Part shown: in pieces, positions 1 to 18,575 of the stretch | Position numbering within the stretch: the stretch's first letter is position 1 | How the letters are laid out: each line of letters begins with the position of its first letter | Virus record (IMG/VR): IMGVR_UViG_3300025669_001086 | Coordinates: 1-23,193 of that record | Reading direction: 5' to 3' (one strand) | From: a virus | Length of the DNA: 23,193 nucleotides | Notes under the pieces: generated by a model | The model's input: only the letters and a program-made list of their open reading frames with translations | What the model was told of the DNA's origin: nothing | Database searches by the model: none | Position numbers and translations under genes: made by a program

Positions 1-795
1 TTTTCTTGCTTCAGAATAAACCATAGGATCGCCTCTATAAAATGGTTTTGGTTTTTTCTTTTCAGGTAAAGATCCCTTATCGATATCTTCCCAACGTTTC
101 TGATTAAGATAAGTTGCAGGGTGTGGAATAAAATCTTTATCTCCGAGCCAGGCCTTAGTTTCTTTTTTGGTTTCAATATCTTCTAATATATCAGGTAATA
201 ATTTTTTACTAATCTTCTTGAATGATTTTAATGCTTTTCTTGGACCAACTTTTCTTGGATATAATGAATAAAAAGTATCAAAATCAGGGTATTTTTCTAA
301 TAATTCTTTAATAGATAAATTATCGTCTTTATTATCTATATTTTTATTAATATCTATATCTTTATCTATATTGTCTAAACTTTCTTTAGTGTCCGACTCA
401 ACTTCCTTTAGTGTGGCACTCAACTTTCTTGGGTGTGACACTAAACTTTCTTTAGTGTGGCTCAAGTTTCTTGAGTTTAGCTTTAATAAGATAACATTAT
501 CATACCAAAGTTGAGTAGTCCTCAAGTATCTTGTGTCAGGATCCTTTTCAATAAGTTCTTTTTTAATCAACCCTGAAATAATTGAATGAGCAGATTGTTC
601 TGAAACATCAATATAATTTCCAAGAGTTTTTTTAGAAGCATAACACCAACCTTGTAAATTACTTTTAGGATTATTTTGTAAATGATAAATACTATCTGTT
701 ATACAATACTCATTAAGAGATATTTTTAATGTTTTTTTTGCCTGATGAATAATTATTGTATATGTTAGTATTTCTTTTTGTTCGTTGTTTTTCAT
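1..795 (-). CDS. Phage replication initiator protein (O/DnaD-like), 3' end outside window
   Basis: The reading frame is open from an ATG at 795 to the left edge, giving at least 265 residues with no stop, so the C-terminus is missing. Residues about 50-95 (ASKKTLGNYIDVSEQSAHSI and the following lysine-rich stretch) read as a winged-helix DNA-binding domain. The linker at about 105-150 is charged and lies over the iterons. The C-terminal part has FYSLYPRKVGPRKALKSFKK and then IPHPATYLNQKRWED, the signature pair seen in many phage replication O and DnaD-like proteins that recruit host helicase. The gene follows promoter P1 and a leader with a terminator 25 bases before the start. The Shine-Dalgarno match is poor. 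The class (replication initiator) is fairly sure; the exact family is inferred from motifs alone. Confidence 0.8.
   Translation of the reverse strand, partial: MKNNEQKEILTYTIIIHQAKKTLKISLNEYCITDSIYHLQNNPKSNLQGWCYASKKTLGNYIDVSEQSAHSIISGLIKKELIEKDPDTRYLRTTQLWYDNVILLKLNSRNLSHTKESLVSHPRKLSATLKEVESDTKESLDNIDKDIDINKNIDNKDDNLSIKELLEKYPDFDTFYSLYPRKVGPRKALKSFKKISKKLLPDILEDIETKKETKAWLGDKDFIPHPATYLNQKRWEDIDKGSLPEKKKPKPFYRGDPMVYSEARK
299..481 (-). other. Predicted replication origin inside the initiator gene
   Basis: Five iterons (374-481) are followed, in gene sense, by about 75 bases of almost pure A/T (about 299-373, runs such as ATCTATATTTTTATTAATATC on the plus strand). Iterons followed by an AT-rich unwinding tract within the initiator coding region is the layout of the lambda origin in gene O. 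That origin activity resides here is inference; the repeats and the AT tract are directly visible. Confidence 0.7.
374..481 (-). repeat. Five tandem 22-bp iterons
   Basis: Units lie at 374-395, 396-417, 418-439, 440-461 and a shorter, more divergent 462-481. On the minus strand the core reads ACACTAAAGAAAGTTTAGT with a few substitutions. A degenerate sixth copy may lie at 519-540. The unit is 22 bp, not a multiple of three, so consecutive copies are read in different codon frames (HTKESL, SHPRKL, ATLKEV, DTKESL) yet keep their DNA sequence. Selection is therefore on DNA rather than on a protein repeat, as expected for initiator binding sites. Confidence 0.85.
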
Positions 796-810
796 AGTTT
801 TTTAATAATG

Positions 811-865
811 AATAAAAAGACCCCGGCTACTACAATGAGATAAAAACATACCTCTTAGCCGGGGT
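811..865 (-). terminator. Intrinsic terminator in the leader of the replication gene
   Basis: A 10-bp GC-rich stem (820-829 with 856-865, ACCCCGGCTA / TAGCCGGGGT) encloses a 26-nt loop and is followed on the minus strand by TCTTTTTATT. It lies downstream of promoter P1 and only 25 bases before the initiator start codon, so transcripts of the initiator gene, whether from P1 or P2, must read through it. It may also end the upstream recombination operon. Confidence 0.75.
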
Positions 866-917
866 TTCTCTATCAATTATATTCAAATGTTGGTATGTTT
901 TTTTAATCATTGTAGTA
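828..917 (-). promoter_or_regulatory. Long inverted repeat in leader, possible antiterminator
   Basis: Arm 892-917 and arm 828-852 are inverted copies of each other: 11 paired bases (GGTATGTTTTT), a 3-4 base mismatch, and 11 more (TCATTGTAGTA). In RNA this would form a 22-bp interrupted stem with a 39-nt loop. The loop contains the 5' arm of the terminator stem (856-865), so this stem and the terminator stem cross and should compete. The arms could instead be paired protein sites in DNA. Confidence 0.55.
830..910 (-). CDS. Possible 26-residue leader peptide
   Basis: An ATG at 910, about 14 nt after the predicted P1 start site, opens a 26-codon frame (beginning MIKKTYQHLN, ending KRYVFISL) that stops at TAG TAG (827-832), directly at the 3' arm of the terminator. 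It spans the terminator's 5' arm, so a translating ribosome would keep the terminator from folding. There is no Shine-Dalgarno sequence and the frame is short, so chance is a real possibility. It is listed because its placement is what a translation-coupled attenuator would need. Confidence 0.25.
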   Translation of the reverse strand: MIKKTYQHLNIIDRETPAKRYVFISL

Positions 918-926
918 AATTACTAC
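912..926. promoter_or_regulatory. 15-bp palindrome overlapping P1 start site, likely operator
   Basis: GTAGTAAATTACTAC is a perfect inverted repeat around its central base. It begins a few bases after the -10 of P1 and covers the expected transcription start (about 924), a typical place for repressor binding. A candidate binder is the small HTH-like protein encoded at 4563-4736, but nothing in the sequence proves the pairing. Confidence 0.5.
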
Positions 927-930
927 TCTT

Positions 931-959
931 ATTTTAACTTTTTCTAATAACGCTGTCAA
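931..959 (-). promoter_or_regulatory. Promoter P1 for the replication gene
   Basis: On the minus strand TTGACA (954-959), a 17-bp spacer and TAAAAT (931-936) give a near-consensus sigma-70 promoter pointing at the initiator. The predicted start is near 924. A perfect DnaA box lies exactly 7 bp upstream. Confidence 0.8.
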
Positions 960-966
960 ACGCTAC

Positions 967-975
967 TTATCCACA
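967..975 (+). promoter_or_regulatory. DnaA box upstream of P1
   Basis: TTATCCACA is the perfect consensus DnaA box. It sits 7 bp from the -35 of P1 and just past the stop of the 977-1420 gene. The same box at the same distance is found at P2. Confidence 0.75.
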
Positions 976-976
976 G

Positions 977-1420
977 TTATTTTTTTCTTGCGCTTTTAAT
1001 TTCTTTCTGATATTCAATCCAAAGATCCTCTGGGTGTGGTAAAATTATATTCAATACAGAGATTGAAAATCTTTCAACCTTGCCCATATATTCAGAAAAC
1101 TCTATCGTATCTAAAATTGACGTGCTTTTAACATAAGGATTTGGTCCTGATCTATCCATTAAAAACATATAGGCGAACTTAGCGTGAACTTTACTTATGT
1201 CGTCCTCTCCAGTTTCTTTAGCAATTAAATCTACCCATAACCAGTAAAGTCGATTTGAGGCCGGAGTTCTTTTATTAGTCCATTTTTGAATACCAATCTC
1301 AACTTCTTTATCTTTTAACTCTAATAAGTTTTGTTGCCAAAGTTTAGGATTATTAAATACAGGATAAAGATTAAGCCCTCTCTTTTTAATTGTAGCTTTC
1401 CAACGTTTTATTATTTTCAT
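977..1420 (-). CDS. Hypothetical early phage protein, possibly NinB/recombination-mediator-like
   Basis: 147 residues. The N-terminus is basic (MKIIKRWKATIKKRG). The centre has RTPASNRLYWLWVDLIAKET, and the end has LPHPEDLW. The pattern of a basic residue, N-x-x-x-W and a helix, followed by a C-terminal proline-containing LPxP motif, is reminiscent of phage NinB/YbcN-type recombination mediators. Its place at the end of an ERF and nuclease operon agrees with that. The similarity is weak and is my inference; a plain hypothetical protein is equally defensible. It starts at the ATG after a 24-base gap from the previous gene and ends just before the DnaA box of P1. Confidence 0.6.
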   Translation of the reverse strand: MKIIKRWKATIKKRGLNLYPVFNNPKLWQQNLLELKDKEVEIGIQKWTNKRTPASNRLYWLWVDLIAKETGEDDISKVHAKFAYMFLMDRSGPNPYVKSTSILDTIEFSEYMGKVERFSISVLNIILPHPEDLWIEYQKEIKSARKK

Positions 1421-1444
1421 CTTTTTATCTTATTGTTAATTTAT

Positions 1445-1651
1445 TTAACTTCTTATTTCATTATAATCCCAAGGACTATCATTAAAAACACTATCATCTT
1501 CTAATTTTTCAATCATTTTATCCTTATCTTCATTATCTTTATGAATTTCGTGTAGTTTACCGCTTTCTCCATTATTCTTTTTTAATTCTGATGAGAATAT
1601 AATTCCCCTATCCCTTTGATCTGTTGTTAAATACTTTTGTCTTTTATTCAT
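1445..1651 (-). CDS. Small hydrophilic hypothetical protein
   Basis: 68 residues, rich in Lys, Asp and Glu (for example HKDNEDKDKMIEKLEDDS), with no membrane segment and no motif I recognise. Its ATG overlaps the stop of the upstream gene by 4 bases, a translational-coupling arrangement that supports it being real. It sits in the recombination operon; the function is unknown. Confidence 0.6.
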   Translation of the reverse strand: MNKRQKYLTTDQRDRGIIFSSELKKNNGESGKLHEIHKDNEDKDKMIEKLEDDSVFNDSPWDYNEIRS

Positions 1652-1872
1652 AATTTTTTATTATACTCATTGCTTATAGAGTCCTTGTCTAAAGTTGGTA
1701 AAGTTTTAAGCGTCATATCCTCCCATAATTCCTTAGCTAATTCAATTATCTCGTTCTTGCTTAATAATGGATCTAATCCACCATATTCTTCTCCTGTCAT
1801 TTTTTCTGCGTGTTCAACTAATTCAGGCCAATTCTCTTTTAGAAAATCGTTAAAGTTATCGCACGTTTTCAT
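1648..1872 (-). CDS. Small acidic hypothetical protein
   Basis: 74 residues, mostly helical by composition (NDFLKENWPELVEHAEK; KNEIIELAKELWEDM). It overlaps its neighbours by 4 bases at both ends, so it is tightly coupled to the nuclease upstream and to the 68-residue protein downstream. No family is recognised. A small accessory partner of the recombination proteins is possible but unproven. Confidence 0.65.
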   Translation of the reverse strand: MKTCDNFNDFLKENWPELVEHAEKMTGEEYGGLDPLLSKNEIIELAKELWEDMTLKTLPTLDKDSISNEYNKKL

Positions 1873-2495
1873 TTTTTTATCTTAAAGATACGTCCTAATT
1901 CACAAATATCATTCCAAGCATTTGAAATCCTTTTTGAGAATAAAGTTATATCTTTAATTGTTCTTTTAGTTTCAAACATTTTTATTTTACCGGTTAAGAA
2001 AATACTCCCGTCTTGTCTTTCAGCAGTTTCAAGCCAATGAAGAAATATCTTTTTAGGCAAACAACCATACTTGATCCAAACCATTAAAGCATAGAAAGTT
2101 AGTTGCCCGGATTTGTCAGCCGTTGATTGAATATAATTCTTTCCGGTTTTATATTCCCCTATTGTTTTGGTCCGGGTATCCCACCCGTCCAGTTTTCCAA
2201 ATAAAGGAATGTTTTGATTAGGTAATGATACTCTAATCTCAAACTCTCTTTTAGGATATTGAGGAGCAAATAATAATATACTTTCAATAACAGGATCACG
2301 TTGCTCATCATATCCTAATTCAAGACCCTTTGCTATCCTTGATCCAAATCTCATATACTTATTGTCAAAGCCGTCTTTCCCCTCTATGTAATGCCAATAA
2401 TACATAGAGGGATTGGTTTCAATAAGATTAAGTTGAGTCCAAGAGATATAATCGCGTGGACTATTATTTTTTATTGATTTCATTGACTTTATCAT
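1869..2495 (-). CDS. PD-(D/E)XK exonuclease of the RecB/Cas4-like phage type
   Basis: 208 residues. The N-terminal YISWTQLNLIETNPSMYYWH (residues 16-35) matches the helix seen in RecB/Cas4-like nucleases. The catalytic core is visible: Asp in GKLDGWD (residues 100-106), then Glu114 and Lys116 in GEYKTGK, then QLTFYA (131-136), the helix that follows the ExK strand in this fold. The expected role is resection of double-stranded ends to make single strands for the ERF protein encoded just upstream. The start ATG at 2495 overlaps the ERF stop by 32 bases; a second ATG at 2483 is possible. No iron-sulphur cysteine set is seen, so a plain exonuclease fits better than a true Cas4. Confidence 0.8.
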   Translation of the reverse strand: MIKSMKSIKNNSPRDYISWTQLNLIETNPSMYYWHYIEGKDGFDNKYMRFGSRIAKGLELGYDEQRDPVIESILLFAPQYPKREFEIRVSLPNQNIPLFGKLDGWDTRTKTIGEYKTGKNYIQSTADKSGQLTFYALMVWIKYGCLPKKIFLHWLETAERQDGSIFLTGKIKMFETKRTIKDITLFSKRISNAWNDICELGRIFKIKK

Positions 2496-3276
2496 TAGTT
2501 AATTTCTTAACTTTGGCTTTGAAAGTTTTACTAAACTTAGACGAGCTTTGAGTTTGCTCATCAATGTTGATTAACTGACTGTCATTTACTGACTCTTTAA
2601 TGGCCTGGAGTATCATATCCATAGTTTCTTTTAGAGTAGGAGTTTTAGCTTTAGGAGGAATAACTGGAGTAGGAGTTGGCGCAGGTTTATTTGTGGTTTG
2701 AGTTGAGATAGCGTCATCATCAGTATCTCCTGTTACTATACCGAAAGCGTCGCAGAAAGCATATCTTTTAGCGAAAGTTAAAGCTGAAGCAGTTACTTGA
2801 GAATTAGACATAATATCTGTTTTATTTCCTAATGGAACTTCCATATCACTAAACTCTGAATGTCCTAATCTATGCTTAACAATACAAATTGCTTTAACTC
2901 CTTTATCTTTAGTTTCAGTTTTGATCTGATAACTAAATCCATTTTTACTAATAAAAGGCCTGGTTTGAATAACAATAGAGTCAATCGGAGCATAAGAATA
3001 TAGTAGTTGGTTGTTCTTATTCTTAACTTGCTTTGACTTTTTAATGATTGGCATTTCACTTTGAAGATTAGACATTGCTTCGTCAAACGCTTCCTTAGCT
3101 TGACTTGCTTTAACTCTCTCAGCTAAGGCAACCATTCTCTCAATGGTTTCAATAGAAGATCCTTGATCGATTGCTCGAGCAATAAGATCTTCAGGAGTTG
3201 AGGGAATAACTGCTATTGATTTACTTGTTGATTTTTTAGGTGCAACAACAACCTCTACTTTTTGTTTTGTAGGCAT
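2464..3276 (-). CDS. erf: ERF-family single-strand annealing protein
   Basis: 270 residues from the ATG at 3276. The core (about 45-192) carries the hallmarks of the Erf family: YSYAPIDSIVIQTRPFISKN, the beta-strand run FSYQIKT, then SNSQVTASALTFAKRYAFCD and FGIVTGDTDDDA. The tail is Pro/Thr-rich and then Lys-rich. Erf proteins form rings that anneal complementary single strands, aiding phage recombination and genome circularisation. A longer TTG-started frame reaches 3312, inside the upstream gene. I chose the ATG because it follows the upstream TAA directly. The nuclease downstream and the coiled-coil protein upstream complete a typical recombination cassette. Confidence 0.9.
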   Translation of the reverse strand: MPTKQKVEVVVAPKKSTSKSIAVIPSTPEDLIARAIDQGSSIETIERMVALAERVKASQAKEAFDEAMSNLQSEMPIIKKSKQVKNKNNQLLYSYAPIDSIVIQTRPFISKNGFSYQIKTETKDKGVKAICIVKHRLGHSEFSDMEVPLGNKTDIMSNSQVTASALTFAKRYAFCDAFGIVTGDTDDDAISTQTTNKPAPTPTPVIPPKAKTPTLKETMDMILQAIKESVNDSQLINIDEQTQSSSKFSKTFKAKVKKLTNDKVNEINKK

Positions 3277-3277
3277 A

Positions 3278-3865
3278 TTATTTTTGATAACTTGATACTT
3301 CTCTTTCCTCAACGACCTTTACGCCAGGGATAATAAACCCGGCAAGAGCAGATCTTCTTATCTTGACCATATCAAGTATAAGAAAATCACGTGGAACATC
3401 AAACTCATTTTCGATAACAACTTTCTTAACCATTCTAAATTGGATCGATCCATTATCTGCTTCAATCTTATTGGCCGGAGTAATCTTATCTAATTTTTCA
3501 GCGCCTTTTTCAATATCCATTTTTCCACTTTCAATTTTTTCTGTAATTTCAACTTCTTTCTCTCTTGCTTTTTCAGCTTGTTGATTTCCGAAGATAGTCA
3601 TTTTCTTTTTAACAATTCTTTCGGCTTCGGACCAATCTGACTCTAATGGCCTAAAAAGATCCATAGCATTATTTTTTGCCTCATTAAGAGGTTTAATAAT
3701 ACTATCTCTTTTTTCTTTGATCTCTCTACCAACAGATTTAATTTTGCCTAAAATATCTGTGGCTTCAACTAATCCCGGAGCGCTATTTATTTTTAACGAT
3801 CCTGCTGATTTTATTATTGATGATACTTGCTTTTTAATTGGAGCAAGATTTAATTCGTTTTTCAT
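3278..3865 (-). CDS. Coiled-coil protein associated with ERF (DUF1351-like)
   Basis: 195 residues. The first two thirds are helical and strongly charged (REIKEKRDSIIKPLNEAKNN; KMTIFGNQQAEKAREKEVEI). The final third is beta-like and ends IPGVKVVEEREV. This layout, directly before an ERF or RecT gene, matches the DUF1351-type proteins common in phage recombination cassettes; their biochemical role is not settled. The ATG at 3865 has no good Shine-Dalgarno sequence. The upstream 88 bases contain a plus-strand promoter and the start of a predicted antisense small RNA, so expression of this gene could be affected by it. Confidence 0.65.
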   Translation of the reverse strand: MKNELNLAPIKKQVSSIIKSAGSLKINSAPGLVEATDILGKIKSVGREIKEKRDSIIKPLNEAKNNAMDLFRPLESDWSEAERIVKKKMTIFGNQQAEKAREKEVEITEKIESGKMDIEKGAEKLDKITPANKIEADNGSIQFRMVKKVVIENEFDVPRDFLILDMVKIRRSALAGFIIPGVKVVEEREVSSYQK

Positions 3866-3872
3866 TTAACTA

Positions 3873-3901
3873 TTGACACGACTCGCAAGATTTCTTATAA
3901 T
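3873..3901 (+). promoter_or_regulatory. Consensus sigma-70 promoter on the plus strand
   Basis: TTGACA (873-878), a 17-bp spacer and TATAAT (896-901) match the consensus at all twelve positions. It is the strongest promoter in the window and points against nearly every gene. Transcription would start near 3908. Confidence 0.8.
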
Positions 3902-3907
3902 GAGAAT

Positions 3908-3987
3908 GTTCGCATTTTTCATATAAAAAACTAATACTTCGCCGTGTTATATTTTATTCCCAGATATTATTTTCTGGGATTTTTTTT
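3908..3987 (+). ncRNA. Predicted ~80-nt small RNA, antisense to the early operon
   Basis: A consensus promoter ends at 3901 and a clean intrinsic terminator follows at 3958-3987, with no credible plus-strand ORF between (the ATG frames stop after a few codons and lack a ribosome site). The RNA would overlap the 3' end of the HNH gene by about 34 nt, and its first part is complementary to the leader of the 3865 gene. It contains CAUUUUUCAU, and so UUUUUCAU, which complements the first eight bases (AUGAAAAA) of at least three phage genes (3865, 795, 5244). In AT-rich DNA that last match may be chance. Confidence 0.65.
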
Positions 3988-4406
3988 AATTTGATTAGTG
4001 CTATTCTACCCATTCTATCTAAAATTGTTCTTTTTTTTACTTTCTCGATTTTAGCTATATCTTCTAATGTCATACTCTTTCCAAGTTTCTCAAAATATTT
4101 TTTATTTCTGTCGCTCAAAATTACAATTCTTTTATGGATACAATCATTTGAGAATAATTGTAGATTTTCAATTCTATTATCATTCTTAATTTCATTGATA
4201 TGATGAACAACTTCTTCTGATTTTAGATATCTCCCAAGATGTTTTTCCATTACTAATCTATGTTCTAAAACACTCTTATTTTTATTAGCAAAAGGGTGAT
4301 TTGGTTTTCTAATAAGAATATATCCCTTTGCTGTTTCTCTAATTCCTCCTTTCCATAATGGGTGATTTTTACCTTTATTTAATTTGTGTCCTTTTTTATA
4401 TGGCAT
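3954..4406 (-). CDS. HNH homing endonuclease
   Basis: 150 residues. The N-terminal GKNHPLWKGG is a NUMOD3-type motif. The HNH core is complete: EHRLVMEKHLGRYL (His49), then EEVVHHINEIKNDNRIENLQL with His68-His69, Asn71 and the downstream Asn residues. The C-terminus (about 112-131, MTLEDIAKIEKVKKRTILD) is a helix-turn-helix for target DNA recognition. Such genes are selfish elements that cut alleles lacking them. It lies 10 bases after the small membrane-protein gene as a free-standing insertion; no split host gene or intron ends are apparent on either side. Its 3' end doubles as the terminator of the predicted plus-strand small RNA. Confidence 0.9.
   Translation of the reverse strand: MPYKKGHKLNKGKNHPLWKGGIRETAKGYILIRKPNHPFANKNKSVLEHRLVMEKHLGRYLKSEEVVHHINEIKNDNRIENLQLFSNDCIHKRIVILSDRNKKYFEKLGKSMTLEDIAKIEKVKKRTILDRMGRIALIKLKKIPENNIWE
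3958..3987 (+). terminator. Intrinsic terminator, plus strand
   Basis: A 7-bp stem TCCCAGA / TCTGGGA (958-964 with 973-979), an 8-nt loop and eight T residues. The T-run is only on the plus-strand side, so it does not serve the minus-strand genes. It also encodes the last residues of the HNH protein in the opposite direction. Confidence 0.75.
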
Positions 4407-4416
4407 AATTAGTTTT

Positions 4417-4566
4417 TTATTTTTGACACAACTCTTTCATCATTTCTGTTTGATGAGGTAACGTTTCCCAATAAGCACATTTGTTATCCCAACTTTTTTC
4501 CCAACATAGAAACATAATAGTTGAAAGAAAGATTGAGATACCGGCTATCGCTAAGATTGTTTTCAT
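4417..4566 (-). CDS. Small membrane protein, 49 residues
   Basis: The ATG at 4566 has an excellent Shine-Dalgarno sequence (AAAGGAG, 6 bases upstream) and overlaps the stop of the previous small gene by 4 bases. One hydrophobic segment spans residues 3-21 (TILAIAGISIFLSTIMFLC). A short tail follows with Trp and Cys (WEKSWDNKCAYWETLPHQ). The N-in/C-out single span and the cysteines suggest an inner-membrane protein exposed to the periplasm or cell surface. Early expression next to a regulator would suit superinfection exclusion or membrane takeover, but no family is recognised. Confidence 0.7.
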   Translation of the reverse strand: MKTILAIAGISIFLSTIMFLCWEKSWDNKCAYWETLPHQTEMMKELCQK

Positions 4567-4736
4567 TTTGACTCCTTTCTTTTAATTATCTGATAGAAGT
4601 TTGATAATGATGTTTTGAAGATTTGAGCTAAACATAACATCGAGATATCATTCTTATATTTATTCCAGGTATCTAAGTAGATTTCTGATCTAACTCTTTT
4701 TTGATACTTGGTTAATTTTTCTTTTATTTTAGTCAT
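4563..4736 (-). CDS. Small HTH-like protein, first gene of the early operon
   Basis: 57 residues, basic. Residues 31-52 (ISMLCLAQIFKTSLSNFYQI) read as a helix-turn-helix. The protein is short like Cro-type regulators, though no family match can be claimed. The start at 4736 has AAGGA 8 bases upstream, and its stop overlaps the next ATG. It is the first gene after promoter P2, whose start site carries 11-bp direct repeats, so autoregulation is an obvious possibility. It may also bind the palindrome at P1. Confidence 0.65.
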   Translation of the reverse strand: MTKIKEKLTKYQKRVRSEIYLDTWNKYKNDISMLCLAQIFKTSLSNFYQIIKRKESK

Positions 4737-4770
4737 TTGTTAATTCCTTATTTATTTATTATCGACCTTT

Positions 4771-4792
4771 ACTATGCTTTAACTATACTTTA
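4771..4792. promoter_or_regulatory. 11-bp direct repeats at the P2 start site, possible operator
   Basis: Two adjacent copies, ACTATGCTTTA and ACTATACTTTA, differ by one base and abut the -10 of P2, with a further partial copy on each side. The spacing is one helical turn, which would place bound proteins on the same DNA face. Confidence 0.45.
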
Positions 4793-4821
4793 ATTTTAAG
4801 CTATTATTGAATACGTGTCAA
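4793..4821 (-). promoter_or_regulatory. Promoter P2 for the early operon
   Basis: TTGACA (816-821), a 17-bp spacer and TAAAAT (793-798) on the minus strand. The hexamers and spacer length are identical to P1. The predicted start is near 4786, about 50 bases before the small HTH-like gene. Confidence 0.8.
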
Positions 4822-4828
4822 GTGTTTT

Positions 4829-4837
4829 TTATCCACA
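4829..4837 (+). promoter_or_regulatory. DnaA box upstream of P2
   Basis: TTATCCACA, perfect consensus, exactly 7 bp upstream of the -35, as at P1. The bases from 4838 to 4950 contain no supported gene, only AT-rich DNA. Confidence 0.75.
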
Positions 4838-4950
4838 ATTAGAAAAAAGGCCTGAAATGGTATAAATGGCTCAACTAAGCCGAAAAACATAGCCCTTAAT
4901 TTGACTTTAGAGCGTCTGAATAAAAAAAGTAGTAGTATAGGTTAGCTTAA

Positions 4951-4990
4951 TAAAATAAAAACAGCCCACGTTTTCAAATGAGCCGTCTTT
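4951..4990 (-). terminator. Intrinsic terminator of the lysis/late operon
   Basis: On the minus strand, AAAGACGGCTCA pairs with TGGGCTGTTTTT through 12 base pairs, some of them G-U, across a 10-nt loop, followed by ATTTTATT. It begins 18 bases after the holin stop codon and separates late from early transcription. Confidence 0.75.
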
Positions 4991-5007
4991 ATCCAAGTAT
5001 GGTAATT

Positions 5008-5244
5008 TTATTTTGCGCTTCCAGTTCCCCTTAACTTATAATATAATCTTGATCCAACAATAGCTTCTCCAGTTCCGTATCTAATAACTATATCATATAC
5101 ACCCCAGATAGAAGTTATCAATCCTGGCAAAAAATCAACAAAAGTCAATTCTCCTGATAAAACTAAAGCTAATGATGTTAAAATACCTGCTACCAATTTT
5201 ATGATAGCACTCCAAATTGCTTTGCTATTATACCATTTTTTCAT
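5008..5244 (-). CDS. Holin-like membrane protein
   Basis: 78 residues from the ATG at 5244. An AAGGA site sits 11 bases before this ATG, which directly follows the upstream stop; a longer frame to 5295 would overlap the peptidase by 50 bases and is less likely. The opening MKKWYNSKAIWSAIIKLVAG resembles many phage holin-type proteins. Two hydrophobic spans are visible (about 10-30 and 35-58, with a possible extra turn), and the C-terminus is basic (RLYYKLRG). The expected role is to permeabilise the inner membrane for release of the peptidase encoded upstream. The next element is a strong terminator. Confidence 0.65.
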   Translation of the reverse strand: MKKWYNSKAIWSAIIKLVAGILTSLALVLSGELTFVDFLPGLITSIWGVYDIVIRYGTGEAIVGSRLYYKLRGTGSAK

Positions 5245-5245
5245 A

Positions 5246-6331
5246 TTATTTTCTTTCCTTATTTTTTTCCATACGACCTTTGATATATTTTCCAATAAAA
5301 CTTTTGTCCTGGAAAAGTTTAATCAAGCCAGTTGTGTTTAGAAAATATATAGCTCTCTCATAGCTTTTATGCTCTTTCGATAATATCCAATTATTGAGAG
5401 AAGTTATTAAATCTTCTCCAACATAAGATTTTGCTCCAGAGTCATTTGCTATGTCCCGGAAAAAACCAAACTTGTAGCATTTTCCTAATAGCTTCAAATC
5501 TATTTTTATTTCCATTTTTTTTTTAGGATCTGGATCGATAACGTTCTCTCCGATGATAGAACGATAAGCATATCCGAGAACCTTATAATTAGGCGCTAAT
5601 TGTTTAATAAAATCTCCGTCAAACGAGTCAATATAATTATCATAAATAGGTAAGTATTTTCCCTTTGTTCCCATTACAACGTGATTAAAATCTCCCTCAA
5701 TCCGAGGATAAATACCATTGATAGGCCTGGACCAAGCCTTGACTACAATACCCAAGAGATTATTTTCATTATTCAAAATATGATCAAAATCTTTTTCATA
5801 AGCCCGATCATAATTCGTTGGCATTCTTTTCTTATATTCTTTACCGAGATCTAACATCGCTTGAGTGATCCTTTTTGGATTATGATATTCCTCCCAAGAC
5901 ATATTCTTTTCAAGAGGGAGCATAGCTTTTGGTATCATTCCGTTATTTTCAACTGCTTTCCAAGGAGCAATAATAGAATTACCTCTTTTAGTAGTCCCGG
6001 ATAAAATTGCTATAAAAGCGTCAGATAATATAACCCGGCCATTAACAATATATCCATTATCAAGCAACCATTTGATCGTTGAGTAATGTAATATCTTTTC
6101 AGTAACCAATCCGGTTACTTTGGTTTCGTGATCATTAACCGGCTCTCTACTGGCGCAATCCATCATATCTCCCTTAGATGTTTTTTGGACCTCTCCAATA
6201 GGATAGTATGATGAGAGATTACTAACTTTTTGAGAGATACAACTTTTTGAAGCTCCAATCCTATAAACATAATCTTTATCAGATTGATCATTAGCTTCTT
6301 TTTGTAAATCTAAACCGTGATTTTTTATCAT
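5246..6331 (-). CDS. Papain-like cysteine peptidase, candidate endolysin
   Basis: 361 residues. A papain-fold triad can be read: Cys59 in GDMMDCASREPVN, His217 in GDFNHVVMG, and Asn232 (or Asp231) in PIYDNYIDSFDG. The spacing is as in C1-type peptidases encoded by phages. There is no signal peptide. Immediate linkage to a holin-like gene and a terminator argues for a lysis function cutting peptidoglycan cross-links. A virion maturation or host-protein protease cannot be ruled out. The C-terminal 100 residues (about 270-361) are helical with a basic tail and may be a wall- or membrane-binding domain. The stop is 1 base before the holin ATG. Confidence 0.7.
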   Translation of the reverse strand: MIKNHGLDLQKEANDQSDKDYVYRIGASKSCISQKVSNLSSYYPIGEVQKTSKGDMMDCASREPVNDHETKVTGLVTEKILHYSTIKWLLDNGYIVNGRVILSDAFIAILSGTTKRGNSIIAPWKAVENNGMIPKAMLPLEKNMSWEEYHNPKRITQAMLDLGKEYKKRMPTNYDRAYEKDFDHILNNENNLLGIVVKAWSRPINGIYPRIEGDFNHVVMGTKGKYLPIYDNYIDSFDGDFIKQLAPNYKVLGYAYRSIIGENVIDPDPKKKMEIKIDLKLLGKCYKFGFFRDIANDSGAKSYVGEDLITSLNNWILSKEHKSYERAIYFLNTTGLIKLFQDKSFIGKYIKGRMEKNKERK

Positions 6332-6335
6332 ATAT

Positions 6336-6569
6336 TTATTCTATCTTTATTATTTTAATAAAAGTATTGATCCCGTCAAAGTTTCTAATAATACATCGCT
6401 TAGTCCCAATAGGAATTGAATGCTCAACAAAAGTTCTAAAATAAGCAAAAGCGTGACTATACTGATAACTATCTCCACAAAATACTTCAGATATTACAAA
6501 AGCAGTAGATAAAAAACTTATCGTCGTAGAAGTAATTAGGAGTTGAGTTATTTCTAATGTTCCAAACAT
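6336..6569 (-). CDS. Small hydrophobic hypothetical protein of the lysis cassette
   Basis: 77 residues from the ATG at 6569; a GTG start at 6587 would lie within the hairpin tail. The N-terminal half is hydrophobic (ITQLLITSTTISFLSTAFVI, about residues 7-28), like one membrane span. The rest is mixed, with two cysteines. It lies between promoter P3 with its hairpin and the cysteine peptidase, 4 bases from the latter. It could be a second lysis-membrane protein such as an antiholin, but no family is recognised and the ribosome site is poor. Confidence 0.5.
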   Translation of the reverse strand: MFGTLEITQLLITSTTISFLSTAFVISEVFCGDSYQYSHAFAYFRTFVEHSIPIGTKRCIIRNFDGINTFIKIIKIE

Positions 6570-6574
6570 ATAAA

Positions 6575-6644
6575 TATAAAAGCCCACAGACGGCTAAGTG
6601 AGTGAGCTTCCTTATGAAAATATAGCAAATTGTTAGCCGTCTGT
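6575..6644 (-). terminator. Strong hairpin/terminator right after promoter P3
   Basis: A perfect 12-bp stem ACAGACGGCTAA / TTAGCCGTCTGT (586-597 with 633-644), a 35-nt loop, and GTGGGCTTTTATATTT on the minus-strand side. Transcripts from upstream late genes should partly stop here. Transcripts from P3 would start within the stem itself. The loop contains AAGGAAG, a ribosome-site-like sequence with no suitable start nearby. Confidence 0.65.
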
Positions 6645-6648
6645 CTAT

Positions 6649-6678
6649 ATTTTAACATTGTTGAAAAGAAGCTGTCAA
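6649..6678 (-). promoter_or_regulatory. Promoter P3 for the lysis cassette
   Basis: TTGACA (673-678), an 18-bp spacer and TAAAAT (649-654) on the minus strand. The hexamers are the same as in P1 and P2 but there is no DnaA box upstream. It lies just after the stop of the small membrane coiled-coil gene. Confidence 0.6.
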
Positions 6679-6681
6679 TAC

Positions 6682-6954
6682 TTATTTGTTCCTCTCCTCT
6701 AAGATAGTAAAAATCTTAACTACATTCTCATTAATTTTTCTAATATCTTTTTCCATATGCTTCAAATGATTTTCTCTTATAAAGTAAATGTCCTGATCTA
6801 TATTTTTGTGATTAATCTCACAACGTTGCTTTATTAATTTGATCGCCTCGGTATTTTTAATATCAGGATCACGAAAAAACTTAAAAATGGTAAATATAAT
6901 CCCTCCAAGAATAGCGATCGAAGTAATAAGCTGTATCATATCCATTGTTATCAT
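6682..6954 (-). CDS. Small membrane-anchored coiled-coil protein
   Basis: 90 residues. One N-terminal membrane span (about 7-26, IQLITSIAILGGIIFTIFKF), then a charged helical coiled coil ending in KIFTILEER. The ATG overlaps the stop of the giant gene (ATGA) and has GGGGGA upstream. The topology resembles the XhlA-like or spanin-like accessory lysis proteins found beside holins, but also fits a virion-associated membrane protein. It lies upstream of P3, so it would be expressed with the late structural genes. Function is inferred from topology only. Confidence 0.65.
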   Translation of the reverse strand: MITMDMIQLITSIAILGGIIFTIFKFFRDPDIKNTEAIKLIKQRCEINHKNIDQDIYFIRENHLKHMEKDIRKINENVVKIFTILEERNK

Positions 6955-9900
6955 ATTTTCCCCCTTTCAATATCTCTTTTAACATCTGATCGAATATCAC
7001 TAACCCATTCTCTAATTTTGTCAATTCTTTTTTCCTGTGAATATCCTTTTAATCGACCTAAGTTATCGTCTATTTTTTCTTTAATCTCTTTTCCTGAATA
7101 CTCAATATATTTATAATACTCGTCCTCAGTCATTACACGGCTTTCTTTATCTCCTCGAGGTTTTATCTTGGTTGCCTTTGACGGCACAGTTATCCATAAT
7201 TCATTTTTAGCTAAAAACTTAATCGTTTCATCTTTAGTTTCTTTAACCGGTTGTAATTCAGTTAGCGCTTCTCCCTTAATTGGTTGGCCAAATACATTAA
7301 GTTTAGGTTTTAGCCCGGAGGTTAATCTTAAATTAGATAATATCTTTTCTTTAATAGTATTGGTTGTATAAATTGTAGGATCAAAATATCTGGCCGTTTG
7401 TTTGAATAAATTAGGAATAGGACTTGTTGCCTGTTGAGCTACAAATCTTTTTAGATAGTTCTTATTCATTTCAGGATCACTTATAAGGTTTACCAATTCT
7501 GACGGACCACGTAAAAATGACATATCTAAAATAGAACTGGCTGATCCAACAAGAGATAAGGTAACTCTATTAAATAAATCCTCGTCTTTGATGTTTGTAT
7601 ATTTACTACTATCAAAATAGTTTCCAACAATAGTCATTGGGATTGCCATTGGTCCCCAGTTTTGATATGGATACCAAGTATTGCCAATCTTAATTGAGTT
7701 TTCGCGCCAACCGGAGTCTTTGAGTTGCTGTTTCTTTTTATAATTCAAAGGACCATTGCCACTTAATTTTTCGTCAGCAGCTAAAGTAGCAAAATAGATC
7801 ATAGCCATAGTCCCTAAAGCTCCTCGAGTTAATGATTTCCCTCTTTGCCTGGCTGTTAGTTCGCTATGATAGTATTTATAGAATAATCCACCCTCTTGAA
7901 AATATGTTTTCCCTTTTATCTTAACAGGTTTAATAAAGCCACGTTTTAATCCAAGAGGAGTCCAATCTAAACTATTATTTACAACATTAGCCACAATACG
8001 AGTAAATGGTAAGATAAGTTTTCCTCCAGGAACTTTGTTAGCAAGACGTCCTAAGTTTTCAGAAAACAAACCAATAATTCCCTCAGGTTTTTGAGTATAT
8101 GTTCCTCTTGATGAAAAATACTGAACTTCAGGATCTGATTTTAATTCATCTTTTAATTCTAATACCCTCCTCCTAACTTCTTCGCCTCTCAATCCCTCAT
8201 TGACTGCTATCTCTCTTGCTTTCCCGTAGGCCTCCATTCCTCTAAATCCCTCTCTGGCCAAAGCGTCCCCGGCCGCCATTAAGCGTCCGACATAATCGAA
8301 TAAATTAAGCCACTTAGCTTTTCCAGTAAATATAATTGGCTTTCGGCCGTATTCCTCATACTTTGATGTTTCTCCCTCTTTCCAAATCTCAACGGCTCTT
8401 TTTTTACCAGTTCTAAGTCCCTCCATTAATCCAACCATAGCAGTAGGAAACTCTTTAGGATTTCTTGCCGTTAAAGTAGCAATTTCTCCAAGTCCTTGAG
8501 ATAAGTTTCCGAAGTTATTTTTAATTTGAGTAGATCCACCTGAAAGAATTGACATATACCATAAATGCCAGGCCTTATCAGCATAAGTTGGCTCAATCAA
8601 TTTCTTAGCTTTTGTTAAGAATGAAGTTAGATCTCCTCCAGTTTCTCCCTCGATCTTTTTTAATCGAGAAGTTAGATCTCTTATGATATCATTTTCTCCG
8701 GCTATTGCTTCCATTTTGAATTGCCTAAAAACATTAGAGGCCTCAGTTCTTAATCCGGCAACAGTTTTCATAACTCCTTGAAGTCGAAACAGCTTCTCTT
8801 TAATAAGGGCTAATTCCTTGCCTGAGGCAGTTTCAGTAGTCGTTTGTCTAATTGTATCTCTAAGGTCTTGCGCCATTTCTGCGACAATCTGACGGCTCTT
8901 GAGGACAGTTTCAGCATTGGCGATAGATCCTGGCTCAACTTTTAATAGATCTTCAACAGTTACTCCAACTTCATTAGCTAATTGCTTTAGATTTTCGTCA
9001 GTTTTAGATATTCTTTGCTTCTTAAACTCTCCTTGCTTTTCAGCAATTCCAGTTAATAAAGTATCAACGTCATCAGGAGCATTAATCTTATCAGGATTAA
9101 AAGATTTTCTACCCTTAACAAACTCTCCCGTCTTGAGTCCGGTCCCTGAAAATAAACCTGTTCGTTTCTTAGTTTCAACTACAACCTCATTAGCTGTTTG
9201 AAAAATACTATTTATCCTATCTATCTGATCTTGGTTATAATCTTCAAATGTATCTTTTTTAGTTTCTGATAATTTAATTTTCAATGCTTGTAACTGTTTT
9301 CTTGATTGACTATATTTCTCATAAGCCAATCTGGCCTGTTCAGAGTCCTTAAATCCTAATTCAGTAACAAGATCATCTCCTTTTTGAGCAAACTTAGATG
9401 TTTTTTCTCCGGTAACTTCAGGAAGTAATCCTTGCTTATTAGTATATTTTGATAATTGCTTAATAGGATCTCCACTTAATACTGATGATAATTCTCCTAC
9501 TTGATTTTGTAATTCATTAACTTTGCTTTCATTTTTAATAAACTTCTTTTGTTTTAATGCCGGTAATTTGGTTGGCTCAGCTTTCGGTTTAACTATCTTT
9601 TTCTCTACTCCCTTAGTTGCTTGGGTGTAGATGTCTGTTAGTTGAGATTTGGTTTTTAATATATCTTTATTTAAGACAATTATTTCTTCTCCACGAGTAG
9701 AAGCACCTTTACCAAAAATTCCAGGGTAGGTTTCATTTTTATAATAGTCAAACCCTTTATTCTTTAAGAAATCTTGTAACTTTACTTGTCTTGCATCTAT
9801 TTTGGCAAAGTCTGGATTTTTTACAAATAAATAATCATCTAACAAATTTTCTTGTATTTTTGAAAGTTCGTCTCTTTTTAATGCGCTTAATCCATCTTTT

Positions 9901-12900
9901 AATATTTTTTGTTGTCTTTCTGGGTTAAATGATTTAAACAATTTTTCCCCTTGATTAAAGTTATCCTTACCAATAAATTCTTCTAATAACTTTGTATTAG
10001 TTAAATCAGCTTCTTTTCCACCTATTATATAACTATCCTTAACTCCACCATAAGTTTTTGCCAATTCTTTATTTGGTGTCGTATAAATAGCTTTACCTTT
10101 AATATCAGAAGAAACTTCGCTAGTTCCTCTAAATACTTTAGGTTGTGCCTTCACAAACTCCTCTGCACTCTTATACTTCTTTGCTTGCTTTTTGATGGTT
10201 GTTGGTGTGAATTCTGCTAAATCTTTAAACTTCTTCGTAAGTCCTTTTTCAATAGCCTTAGCTTCTACGCTTAATGCTACTCCAGATGGTTTTCCTTTAG
10301 GTTTAATTGGTTTAATCTTTTCTGGATAATAAATAAACTCTCCCTCAAAACCCTCTGCTTTCGGTTTTAATAAATCAGATTTTTTAACAGTCGTTTCAGT
10401 AATTTCAGGTTGACCTCTCTTAAATCCAAGATTTTCTCTAAAGTCAACAGCGTCTTGTTTTTTAGTGAAAACAAACTTACCCTCTTTTAATACAATTCCT
10501 TTTTCATCTACCCTATAAATTTTGATCTTATTTTCCCCTGTTAATCTATTGTATTGATCCAAAGTTTTTTCTATATCTTTAGGACTTTTAATATCTAACA
10601 TTTCAGTCCTATTTCTAATTATGAGTTCTGCTTCTTTTTTTGTATATCCTCTTTCAATCAATTCATCAACACTCCTTGCTCCTTTAGTAGTTGGTTCAAC
10701 TTTCGGTTTAGTTTCGGTTTTTGGTTTTGGTTTGACTGGTTCTCCCCAATAACCAAATTCAGTAATATCATCTCCGGCAAATTGAACTTCTTTTACTTTT
10801 ACCTTAAACTCTTGTATTGGCACATTCTCAGTTAAGCTTTCTCTTCTGGCCTTTTCCTTTGAAAATGTAACCCAATCGCCAGTTCTTAATTCATTTTTTG
10901 GTCCGGCTCTATATATTGTTATTGTAGAATTAGGTTTCCCTTTTATTCTTTGTAATACATCAATACTCTCTTGATATTCTTTACCTCCGTGCTTATAAAT
11001 TTCTGGTCGTTCATAAAAATTAGGCAAACTTTCTTGTGGTATATTTGAAGCTACTCCACTTTTACTTGGTCTATGAGACATTTTATAATCATCAATAGAA
11101 GTTTTACCAGTTAATTCTTCCCAAAACTTAGATACCTGTTCTTGGCCACGAATTCCCCTATCTCTTAATTCTTGATTAATTTTACCTCCTGATAATTCAT
11201 AAAAATCTTTTCCATTATCATATTCCATTGCTTTTGTAAATATCTCTTGATCAATCTCCGACTTTTTAACTTGCTTTTCAACTGGAACTTCCTCAACTGG
11301 TTTTCTTGCCTCTCCCATTGTTTCCCTGATCCTTTCAGTAATAAATCCCTCTTTGGCTAAGTAATAATTTATAAACTCTGAGAAGTTAGGAGCAATTTTA
11401 ATAGCTTGTTTAGAATTAGTTACTACTTCCTTAACTGCCGTAGCAAATTTATCAGCATATCTTTCTCTGGTTTCTCCTGGCGATAATTTTTCTACATCTT
11501 TATTAAAAGTTTCTGTCAATAATTTAATCTTAGCTGATATTTCTTTGGCCGTAGCATTCCCCTCTAAACTATCAATAGCATATTTAATAATAGAGCTTTC
11601 AATAGGTAATTTATATTTATTATAATCCGGGATTAAATCTGATAACTTATTATTGATATCCGAGCTTATCTTCTGATCTAAATAATGGCCTAATTCGTGG
11701 GCCAAATTTCCACCCGTAGTTTTATCAGTAGTATAAATAGTTGATCGCTTTGTCTTATAATCAAAAACATATTTTGCCGCGATAGTTTTTCCATTTAGAT
11801 CTCTACCAAGAGTTTTGACAACCCTATAATCGATATCCTCTTTTCCTTTGATAAGATTTTCCAGGACCAATTTATTATCGGTATGTATATCAATAACTCT
11901 ATCTTTGAATGGGATTTTTAGAATACCCTCAGATTTTACCGGGACATTTTTGACTACTTCATTAACAATTTCTTTAGCAATATCAGTAGTAATTTCTACG
12001 TTAGCTTTTTGTTTTCCTAAATTAGGAGCTTCATAAATTATTTTTCCATTTTTATCAGTTACTCTCGCAATATCATTAATCCCGATATTATCACCTCTAT
12101 AATAACCACTATTTGGATCTTTGTATGTTTTACTTCTTGCTTCTGGTTTAATTTCAATTATAACCTCTCCTTTGCCACCACGCATTTTTAATGCACCTTG
12201 TGCTGTTTCAACATCTTCGGCAAGCCAAGTTCTATTTACTTTACCTTTACCAAATCCTATTTGCTCACCACTAAACCCTCCTTGTTTTATATTATCCCAT
12301 TCCAATAAAGTAGTTCCTCTAAACAATGGTTTTATTCCATTATCACTAATACCTTTTTGTCTTGTTATAATTCCATTTCTAATCCCTGAATATAATAATT
12401 TTAATGGAGTGCTTAATGGCTTAAATCCAATAGCAATAGCCGGAGCAGCTATTTGAGTAATTTTTCCTTTGGCTTCTTTAGATATAGGTAACTTTTCAAA
12501 TCCTGCTTTAATTCCCTTAGGAGCAACCTTTAATGTTCCAACTTGAGTAGCAATAGTTGCTAAACTAATTACCGGCTCTCTTAGGATCTCTTTGCTTTCA
12601 TCAGAAATAGGAGTAATGTCAAGTCCTTTTTCTCCTAAGAATGATCCAAGTTCTCCTAATTTTTCAAATCCATAACTAACTGCCTTTGCCGGATATTTGA
12701 GGACAGGCACTTCTTTCGCTGCTTCCAGTTCTGTTTGTAATAATAACCATTGAGGTATCAATCCAATTAAAGAAGAAGCAACATTAAGTCCACCGGCTAA
12801 TCTTTTAACCGGAGTATCCATTGTAGATTTTTGAACAACAGATCCCTCTCTAACTGGCTCTACTTCAAATAAGTCGCTAACCTTATTAACAACATTAGTA

Positions 12901-13181
12901 AATGCTTCTGCCGGGACATTAAAAACTTTCTCAGCTACCCGGCCAAGTATTCCACCCTTTCCTTGAAGTTCTAATTTAGGAGCAGTAATATCTTCTCCAC
13001 TAAAATCAGGAGTTTTGAAAAATGACGGAGCGCCCTGAGATATAGTCCCTCCTAATTTCTTTTCTCTAATATATTTATCAAGAGGATCTTCGGCCGGAGC
13101 CGTATATAAAGAACGTCCGAATATGGACTCGTATTGAGTGTTCTTTTTATTTTGTTTTCCGAAAATAGAGTCGTATGACAT
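6951..13181 (-). CDS. Giant polyvalent protein: zincin metallopeptidase plus four ADP-ribosyltransferase-like modules
   Basis: 2076 residues, 27% of the window. Readable modules: a duplicated YDSIFGK / YESIFGR motif at 3-9 and 17-23; an ART-like module from LFRGTT (Arg288) to about 375; a zinc peptidase with LAHELGHYLD (His495-His499) and a probable third ligand Glu in TRERYADKFA; ART-like modules at TIYRAG (Arg758), KIYRVD (Arg890) and VFRGTS (Arg1018, to about 1165); a long helical region; a conserved-looking AWHLWYMSILSGGS at about 1540; and a C-terminal hydrophobic segment near 1785-1801. Such multidomain polyvalent proteins are known in phages and mobile elements and are thought to enter the cell with the DNA and disarm host functions. 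Position between adaptor-type genes and lysis suggests an ejected virion protein. Enzymatic activities are inferred from motifs only. Confidence 0.75.
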   Translation of the reverse strand: MSYDSIFGKQNKKNTQYESIFGRSLYTAPAEDPLDKYIREKKLGGTISQGAPSFFKTPDFSGEDITAPKLELQGKGGILGRVAEKVFNVPAEAFTNVVNKVSDLFEVEPVREGSVVQKSTMDTPVKRLAGGLNVASSLIGLIPQWLLLQTELEAAKEVPVLKYPAKAVSYGFEKLGELGSFLGEKGLDITPISDESKEILREPVISLATIATQVGTLKVAPKGIKAGFEKLPISKEAKGKITQIAAPAIAIGFKPLSTPLKLLYSGIRNGIITRQKGISDNGIKPLFRGTTLLEWDNIKQGGFSGEQIGFGKGKVNRTWLAEDVETAQGALKMRGGKGEVIIEIKPEARSKTYKDPNSGYYRGDNIGINDIARVTDKNGKIIYEAPNLGKQKANVEITTDIAKEIVNEVVKNVPVKSEGILKIPFKDRVIDIHTDNKLVLENLIKGKEDIDYRVVKTLGRDLNGKTIAAKYVFDYKTKRSTIYTTDKTTGGNLAHELGHYLDQKISSDINNKLSDLIPDYNKYKLPIESSIIKYAIDSLEGNATAKEISAKIKLLTETFNKDVEKLSPGETRERYADKFATAVKEVVTNSKQAIKIAPNFSEFINYYLAKEGFITERIRETMGEARKPVEEVPVEKQVKKSEIDQEIFTKAMEYDNGKDFYELSGGKINQELRDRGIRGQEQVSKFWEELTGKTSIDDYKMSHRPSKSGVASNIPQESLPNFYERPEIYKHGGKEYQESIDVLQRIKGKPNSTITIYRAGPKNELRTGDWVTFSKEKARRESLTENVPIQEFKVKVKEVQFAGDDITEFGYWGEPVKPKPKTETKPKVEPTTKGARSVDELIERGYTKKEAELIIRNRTEMLDIKSPKDIEKTLDQYNRLTGENKIKIYRVDEKGIVLKEGKFVFTKKQDAVDFRENLGFKRGQPEITETTVKKSDLLKPKAEGFEGEFIYYPEKIKPIKPKGKPSGVALSVEAKAIEKGLTKKFKDLAEFTPTTIKKQAKKYKSAEEFVKAQPKVFRGTSEVSSDIKGKAIYTTPNKELAKTYGGVKDSYIIGGKEADLTNTKLLEEFIGKDNFNQGEKLFKSFNPERQQKILKDGLSALKRDELSKIQENLLDDYLFVKNPDFAKIDARQVKLQDFLKNKGFDYYKNETYPGIFGKGASTRGEEIIVLNKDILKTKSQLTDIYTQATKGVEKKIVKPKAEPTKLPALKQKKFIKNESKVNELQNQVGELSSVLSGDPIKQLSKYTNKQGLLPEVTGEKTSKFAQKGDDLVTELGFKDSEQARLAYEKYSQSRKQLQALKIKLSETKKDTFEDYNQDQIDRINSIFQTANEVVVETKKRTGLFSGTGLKTGEFVKGRKSFNPDKINAPDDVDTLLTGIAEKQGEFKKQRISKTDENLKQLANEVGVTVEDLLKVEPGSIANAETVLKSRQIVAEMAQDLRDTIRQTTTETASGKELALIKEKLFRLQGVMKTVAGLRTEASNVFRQFKMEAIAGENDIIRDLTSRLKKIEGETGGDLTSFLTKAKKLIEPTYADKAWHLWYMSILSGGSTQIKNNFGNLSQGLGEIATLTARNPKEFPTAMVGLMEGLRTGKKRAVEIWKEGETSKYEEYGRKPIIFTGKAKWLNLFDYVGRLMAAGDALAREGFRGMEAYGKAREIAVNEGLRGEEVRRRVLELKDELKSDPEVQYFSSRGTYTQKPEGIIGLFSENLGRLANKVPGGKLILPFTRIVANVVNNSLDWTPLGLKRGFIKPVKIKGKTYFQEGGLFYKYYHSELTARQRGKSLTRGALGTMAMIYFATLAADEKLSGNGPLNYKKKQQLKDSGWRENSIKIGNTWYPYQNWGPMAIPMTIVGNYFDSSKYTNIKDEDLFNRVTLSLVGSASSILDMSFLRGPSELVNLISDPEMNKNYLKRFVAQQATSPIPNLFKQTARYFDPTIYTTNTIKEKILSNLRLTSGLKPKLNVFGQPIKGEALTELQPVKETKDETIKFLAKNELWITVPSKATKIKPRGDKESRVMTEDEYYKYIEYSGKEIKEKIDDNLGRLKGYSQEKRIDKIREWVSDIRSDVKRDIERGKI

Positions 13182-13186
13182 AATTT

Positions 13187-14896: not shown

Positions 14897-14897
14897 A

Positions 14898-15596
14898 TTA
14901 AAAGTTTCCTATATTATTATTATTTACTTCACTTGTCGACCCTTTCAAAACGTCAATTTTTCTAAACCTTTGCCTACCTTTTCTAACCTCTTTAGGTTTT
15001 TGCTCCTCGATCCTATCCCATATTTTATCTAAAATAGCACTCGCTTCAGCCAGTTTAGCAAGCGAGTCATTTCTACGTCCGGCTAATTTACTTCCTAATA
15101 CTATTGACTCAGCTTTTAATATAATAGCTTCGTCCCCGTCCGGTTCTGAGTCAGCGAAAGGAGTTAGATCTCCGTCAGCAGTTAGATCTGCAACAGATTG
15201 TTGACCATACATTGCTATAGTATCTCCAACACTACAAGCATTTCCATTAATATAGATATTACGATCAAACTCAGCCCAAACCTTATCAGTCCCGGTTGAG
15301 TATTCTTCTAAGTATTTCAAATAATCCTCATAAGCAATCTTTACATATCTTTCTCCGTCAACTGTTATCAAAAAAATTGATTTGGTCCTGAATAAAGTAG
15401 CATAAGGATAATTTCCAGTTGCGTCTATTAAATCACTATTATTAGAGGCCTCTAAAAATGGCCAGGGTTGATAACTACAAGACCAATCCTTAGCCATATT
15501 GAGCCAACGTTTTATCATTGTTGTTGTTATAAAAGTTGAGGTTGCTAAAATTGTTAGTCGATCCCTTAACTCTGTTTGTTGATTTGCGAATGTCAT
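14898..15596 (-). CDS. Head-tail adaptor protein (P22 gp4-like)
   Basis: 232 residues with a strong AAGGAG site before the ATG at 15596. The N-terminal helices MIKRWLNMAKDWSCSYQPWP followed by FLEASNN and then a beta-rich stretch (IFLITVDGERYVKIAYEDYL) match the layout of podovirus connector/adaptor proteins that dock under the portal. A long helical C-terminus (SLAKLAEASAILDKIWDRIE) and a basic tail follow. In the virion it would link portal to tail. Assignment rests on the pattern of the N-terminal tryptophan-rich helices and on context; sequence identity to gp4 itself cannot be judged. Confidence 0.6.
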   Translation of the reverse strand: MTFANQQTELRDRLTILATSTFITTTMIKRWLNMAKDWSCSYQPWPFLEASNNSDLIDATGNYPYATLFRTKSIFLITVDGERYVKIAYEDYLKYLEEYSTGTDKVWAEFDRNIYINGNACSVGDTIAMYGQQSVADLTADGDLTPFADSEPDGDEAIILKAESIVLGSKLAGRRNDSLAKLAEASAILDKIWDRIEEQKPKEVRKGRQRFRKIDVLKGSTSEVNNNNIGNF

Positions 15597-15615
15597 AATT
15601 TTTCTCCTTATTTAA

Positions 15616-16671: not shown

Positions 16672-17027
16672 TTTAGTTGATCAGCAAGACCGACAAGAGT
16701 CCTCAATTCAAATTGAGTAATCCTTGCTCCCGGCAATGCTTTTTCGTTATAATCTTTCAAATAATTTTTCAAGAAACCTACTTGATCAAGTGATAATTCT
16801 ATTTCTTTCTCATCTCTCCTCCAAACATCATTTGACTTATCAACTAAGTCAAGATAATTTCTATAATCACTCATCTTATACTTACTACTATCAAAAGCAG
16901 ATAAAAGACGGACCAAACATACTGGATCGTGCTGATCATAAATCAATTCCTTATTATCATTTCTCATTTCCTTATTGTCTTTATCTAACTTATTTTTAAT
17001 TGTGAGTTTTAATGTTATTGTTTTCAT
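16668..17027 (-). CDS. Small structural-region hypothetical protein
   Basis: 119 residues, charged, starting with a beta-like MKTITLKLTIKNKLDKDNKE and then helical (IELSLDQVGFLKNYLKDYNE). No membrane span and no recognised family. It sits between the beta-propeller protein and the fibre, coupled to the fibre by a 4-base overlap and separated from the propeller gene by only 4 bases, so it is probably a minor tail or assembly protein. Confidence 0.65.
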   Translation of the reverse strand: MKTITLKLTIKNKLDKDNKEMRNDNKELIYDQHDPVCLVRLLSAFDSSKYKMSDYRNYLDLVDKSNDVWRRDEKEIELSLDQVGFLKNYLKDYNEKALPGARITQFELRTLVGLADQLK

Positions 17028-17031
17028 ATTT

Positions 17032-18438: not shown

Positions 18439-18521
18439 TATTTTTTATTCTTCCTTTTTCTTGGGAAGTTAGGTTTCTTACCTGTTACTTTACAAATTTT
18501 TCGTCTTTTTCCTTTTGGCAT
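18438..18521 (-). CDS. 27-residue basic microprotein
   Basis: The frame MPKGKRRKICKVTGKKP... ends in PRKRKNKK. Fourteen of 27 residues are Lys or Arg. The stop TAA overlaps the ATG of the propeller gene (TAATG), a coupling signal that makes chance less likely. AGGATAAG lies about 10 bases before its start, in the 3' arm of a hairpin. CKVTGKKP looks superficially like the start of ribosomal protein L28 and may be coincidence. It could be a nucleic-acid-binding virion peptide or simply a translational enhancer for the next gene. Confidence 0.45.
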   Translation of the reverse strand: MPKGKRRKICKVTGKKPNFPRKRKNKK

Positions 18522-18537
18522 AATTTTATGAACTTAT

Positions 18538-18562: not shown

Positions 18563-18575
18563 AAATCCACAAGGA

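Follow-up and report, generated by a model that had tools for sequence, protein, structure and literature searches.

A candidate counter-transcribed small RNA opposite the early genes of a metagenomic phage

Genome fragment and early gene module

The sequence analyzed here, referred to as the window, is an IMG/VR virus fragment of 23,193 nt with a G+C content of 34%, of which 95% is coding and 5% intergenic. All assigned genes are on the minus strand, as described in the first-pass annotation; the plus-strand ORFs that are present were read as antisense by-products. From right to left, structural genes are followed by lysis genes and then by an early module composed of orf57, a 49-aa ORF, an HNH endonuclease gene (3954–4406, minus), a gp157-like recombination-module gene (3278–3865, minus), the genes of an ERF single-strand annealing protein and a PD-(D/E)XK nuclease, small ORFs, a NinB-like gene, and a replication initiator gene truncated by the window edge. 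Elsewhere in the window, a single chain of 2076 aa (6951–13181, minus) matches both ParB C-terminal-domain and internal virion protein families.

Promoters with at least 11 of 12 matches to the sigma-70 consensus number four in the window, share the same TTGACA grammar, and are all wholly intergenic. Three of them are minus-strand promoters of the form TTGACA-17/18-TAAAAT, located in gaps before genes (959, 4821, and 6678), and the one at 4793–4821 (TTGACA-17-TAAAAT) is the probable early-operon promoter. The fourth (3873–3901) is on the plus strand, opposes the early-operon promoter, and lies in the gap between the HNH and gp157-like genes. This gap of 88 nt (3866–3953) is nearly filled by the plus-strand promoter and the RNA predicted to follow it.

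Several other repeated or structured elements were detected. Within the replication initiator gene, five copies of a repeat of about 20 bp with a spacing of 20–22 bp (375–480) are probably iterons of a phage origin, by analogy with those in lambda O. Immediately before the same gene (805–959, minus), a promoter TTGACA-17-TAAAAT (959–931) is followed by a leader of about 115 nt and a strong terminator, whose stem is formed by 880–856 and 829–805 (fold z −4.4). In this leader, 917–899 can pair with 846–828, excluding or knotting with the terminator stem, and by its modeled fold the element has the appearance of an attenuator or of another small RNA. In addition, a 12-bp perfect inverted repeat, ACAGACGGCTAA / TTAGCCGTCTGT (6586–6644), immediately downstream of the minus-strand promoter at 6678–6649, is a possible operator.

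Promoter, terminator, and predicted RNA

The plus-strand promoter, TTGACA-17-TATAAT, matches the consensus at 12 of 12 positions with a spacer of 17 nt and is the sole 12/12 promoter in the window. An intrinsic terminator with a 7-bp stem and eight U residues (3958–3987, plus) follows it within the 3' end of the HNH ORF, with the sequence TCCCAGA-8 nt-TCTGGGA and then TTTTTTTT, the stem-loop with its 8-nt loop covering 3958–3979. It is the top-ranking plus-strand terminator in a scan of positions 1–12000, and its stem begins 56 nt past the −10 box and 85 nt past the start of the −35 box. Between the promoter and the terminator, the plus strand has no ORF of note, the single ATG there (3906) opening a reading frame of six codons (MFAFFI). 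The promoter, the terminator, and the ORF-free interval had all been pointed out in the first-pass annotation, and each was recovered here.

If transcription starts 7 nt past the −10 box, as we infer, the product would be a plus-strand RNA of about 80 nt (3908–3987). Its predicted fold (z −3.8) consists of an AU-rich hairpin (3932–3949) with the loop UUCGCC and the terminator hairpin, preceded by an unpaired 5' tail. This tail, GUUCGCAUUUUUCAU (3908–3922), comprises nucleotides 1–15, has a predicted unpaired probability of 0.95–1.0, and is the candidate pairing segment. The predicted RNA is the full complement of the final 34 nt of the HNH ORF and of part of the gp157 leader, so that the antisense relation to the HNH 3' end and the recombination leader, also proposed earlier, is a positional fact.

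Searches against Rfam and for tRNAs gave no match; no Rfam family reached the gathering score in the window, and the sub-threshold matches fell mostly over the terminator. Since no family matches, Rfam annotation would miss the predicted RNA. The start of the gp157-like gene resembles the complement of the RNA tail: ATTCGTTTTTCAT (3853–3865, plus), which is antisense to the gp157 start, and GTTCGCATTTTTCAT (3908–3922, plus), from the tail, are near repeats that differ by a 2-nt insertion, and the tail may have arisen by copying of a start region.

Candidate trans targets and possible transcriptional interference

In the first-pass annotation, the RNA was proposed to carry UUUUUCAU, complementary to the starts of three phage genes including the initiator and the holin. 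The match itself is true, as ATGAAAAA begins the initiator (795), the gp157-like gene (3865), and the putative holin (5244). This 8-mer occurs nine times in all versus 6.1 ± 2.7 expected, and the match therefore means little by itself; the octamer AUGAAAAA is not enriched, and the statistics do not support targeting through UUUUUCAU alone. The holin start was rejected as a target, its pairing with the tail being weak (−8.8 kcal/mol, conditional P 0.48).

The whole 15-nt tail performed better than the octamer at two starts. Beyond its own locus, its top two minus-strand sites are the start regions of orf74 (1858–1873; −13.5 kcal/mol, 13 bp with a bulge) and the replication initiator (779–796; −13.0 kcal/mol, 9 bp and 5 bp separated by an internal loop), and none of 60 shuffled tails had start codons as both of its top two sites. 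When the UUUUUCAU core was kept constant, conditional P values were 0.003 for orf74 and 0.011 for the initiator. By net pairing energy, orf74, the initiator, and gp157 rank first, second, and third among 25 genes. A figure of −19.4 kcal/mol for the initiator was discarded as inflated by pairs spanning long loops, the cleaner figure being −13.0. Pairing between the predicted RNA and the p959 leader RNA did not exceed that of shuffles.

From these ranks, a mainly trans-acting RNA could be proposed, whose 15-nt tail would block translation at the initiator, orf74, and gp157 start codons, as the pMV158 RNAII tail does on repB. The predicted accessibility of the tail is consistent with this proposal, as is RNAII itself, which has a similar build of tail, hairpin, and U-rich end and requires its tail for repB inhibition (PMC4485353). 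However, the match is partly due to the many genes that begin with ATGAAAA; shuffles that kept the core reached −13 or better at two start regions in 5.6% of cases; and among unrelated genomic 80-mers of like composition, 11 of 120 (9%) equaled the observed net pairing with the initiator or orf74. As genomic 80-mers pair this well and several targets were tried, the trans targets remain suggestive. It is doubtful that they are real, and an RNA acting mainly through them is a rather unlikely reading of the locus.

A second alternative is that the RNA itself is near-inert and the plus-strand promoter works by transcriptional interference against the early operon before gp157-ERF, the terminator merely shortening the opposing transcript. 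The geometry, convergent with the minus-strand promoter at 4821, fits this explanation, and in lambda the convergent pO lowers pR transcription and affects replication while the oop RNA has little effect there (PMC3985674). Interference would need neither a folded RNA nor an unpaired tail, and we regard it, as the sole mode of action, as unlikely.

Chance controls and related loci

Windows simulated with a third-order Markov model contained a 12/12 promoter in 93 of 2000 cases, and none of the 2000 combined such a promoter with a strong terminator no more than 200 nt away. These controls were designed after the site had been singled out and for that reason overstate the surprise somewhat. Weak promoter-like sites carry no meaning here, as sites with 9 of 12 matches are as frequent as in shuffles. 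Across 569 kb of the window and the fetched loci, one other comparable promoter-terminator unit was found in mostly intergenic DNA; it belongs to a close relative by capsid, G012, and is on the sense strand. The early region of G012 contains a promoter TTGACT-17-TATAAT (L038:5944–6118) followed by a multibranched structured leader of about 120 nt (z −4.6); the stem that closes this structure overlaps with a strong terminator. Downstream of the leader, which has no Rfam match and may represent a phage leader RNA not yet described, are a small ORF and two genes, one possibly for a single-strand annealing protein and one nuclease-like.

One contig is 99.99% identical to the window and covers 6089–23193 only, ending short of the RNA site. 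A comparable antisense promoter-terminator unit before gp157 was absent from 26 viral-contig loci with 25–38% gp157 identity; in one of these (L046), a terminator lies 241 nt beyond a 10/12 promoter. In two relatives (G010 and G006), gp157 is preceded by a small ORF after a helicase gene, with no HNH gene there and small gaps that leave no room for the RNA. These loci show that the predicted RNA is no ancient, fixed part of the gp157 neighborhood; they do not refute it, because they are too distant (at most 38% identity).

In the collections searched, protein queries for relatives of gp157, ERF, the nuclease, the initiator, and, among bacterial genomes, the capsid recovered neither a close relative spanning the RNA site nor a host. 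In a DNA search of phage records, the HNH core was the sole match, and as the phage HNH relatives match at this core only, they are silent on whether the RNA arrived with the HNH gene. The exact promoter pattern had no match in viral contigs. A pattern of TATAAT plus the tail had nine matches, which are attributed to chance because none has a correctly spaced TTGACA box or a similar terminator.

That the promoter-like and terminator-like sequences are unused products of chance would agree with the lack of conservation among the relatives compared and with the AT-rich composition of the window (34% G+C), in which many 9/12 sites occur in the number expected. The joint occurrence of promoter and terminator in none of the simulated windows and the intergenic position of every promoter with at least 11 matches argue against it; pairing of the two elements by chance is unlikely, and we consider the explanation as a whole improbable. 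Least probable of all, and by a wide measure to be doubted, is that the gap codes for a leader peptide of 18 residues (MKNANILIIRNLASRVNS; 3866–3922, minus, start 3922), with the plus-strand promoter a chance product and the tail likeness mere start-codon antisense: its 18-codon ORF does stop immediately before the ATG of gp157, which is without a clear Shine-Dalgarno sequence, but the ORF is likewise without one, ORFs this short are frequent by chance, a 12/12 promoter occurs in fewer than 5% of random windows, and the terminator is left unexplained.

Proposed function of the predicted RNA

At the sequence level, the predicted antisense unit is real and of an ordinary kind. On this basis, the earlier proposal that a host-type promoter drives a small RNA on the plus strand has good support, and such an RNA is very probably made. 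Promoter, terminator, strand, and overlap are read from the DNA and the unpaired tail is a prediction; transcription, the dampening role, and the trans targets we infer.

The best explanation is an OOP-like regulatory RNA, counter-transcribed as in lambda, that would dampen the early operon, mainly in cis and possibly in trans, which, judging from sequence features and analogy, we favor with moderate confidence. Host RNA polymerase would transcribe the RNA of about 80 nt from the consensus sigma-70 promoter within the early operon, opposite every gene, and the RNA would end at the intrinsic terminator in the 3' end of the HNH gene. In cis, it would pair with the HNH-gp157 segment of the operon mRNA and lower early-operon expression, and head-on transcription would add to the dampening. 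In trans, the unpaired 5' tail may act at early-gene start codons (gp157-like, orf74, and replication initiator). We commit to an RNA that dampens the early operon because the layout is as in lambda OOP and the tail, hairpin, and U-rich end are as in RNAII. The dampening role is somewhat probable; this judgment and those given for the making of the RNA and for its trans targets overlap and are not mutually exclusive. A more elaborate form, in which one RNA is cis-antisense to the recombination leader and its 15-nt tail acts on several early starts including the initiator, jointly setting recombination and replication, seems distinctly unlikely.

Comparison with known antisense RNAs

Phage antisense RNAs of the OOP sort are well known (PMC12197685). 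Lambda OOP is counter-transcribed from pO, terminated at tO, and overlaps the cII 3' end by 52 bases (PMC5869508); both its antisense action on cII and a convergent-transcription effect of pO on pR have been reported (PMC3985674). By sequence, the unit described here likewise has its own sigma-70 promoter directed against an early operon, and it is predicted to give a short RNA (about 80 nt) with an intrinsic terminator that is antisense to the 3' end of a neighboring early gene (34 nt of HNH, compared with 52 bases of cII). In contrast, OOP lies between cII and O and targets cII, whereas the predicted RNA lies between the HNH and gp157-like genes, and no sequence relation between the two RNAs was found.

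RNAII of plasmid pMV158 consists of a single-stranded 5' tail of 17 nt, a single hairpin, and a U-rich end of 8 nt, and its inhibition of repB translation depends on the tail (PMC4485353). The predicted RNA resembles it in the unstructured 5' tail (15 nt, predicted), the terminal hairpin, the U-rich end, and, as is suspected here, in having an initiator start as target. It differs in its additional hairpin, in the partial match to the initiator (9 + 5 bp with an internal loop), and in its position, since RNAII is encoded opposite repB while the initiator (start 795) is 3 kb from the RNA at 3908–3987. The sar RNA of phage P22 is also a phage antisense RNA and blocks the translation start of a phage gene; its target, however, is the antirepressor gene ant, and no relation to the predicted RNA in sequence or context was seen.

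With this locus, a phage group known here from metagenomes only gains a candidate antisense RNA with well-defined limits. Were its tail to act on the initiator, small antisense RNAs would prove to control replication in unrelated phages as they do in plasmids.
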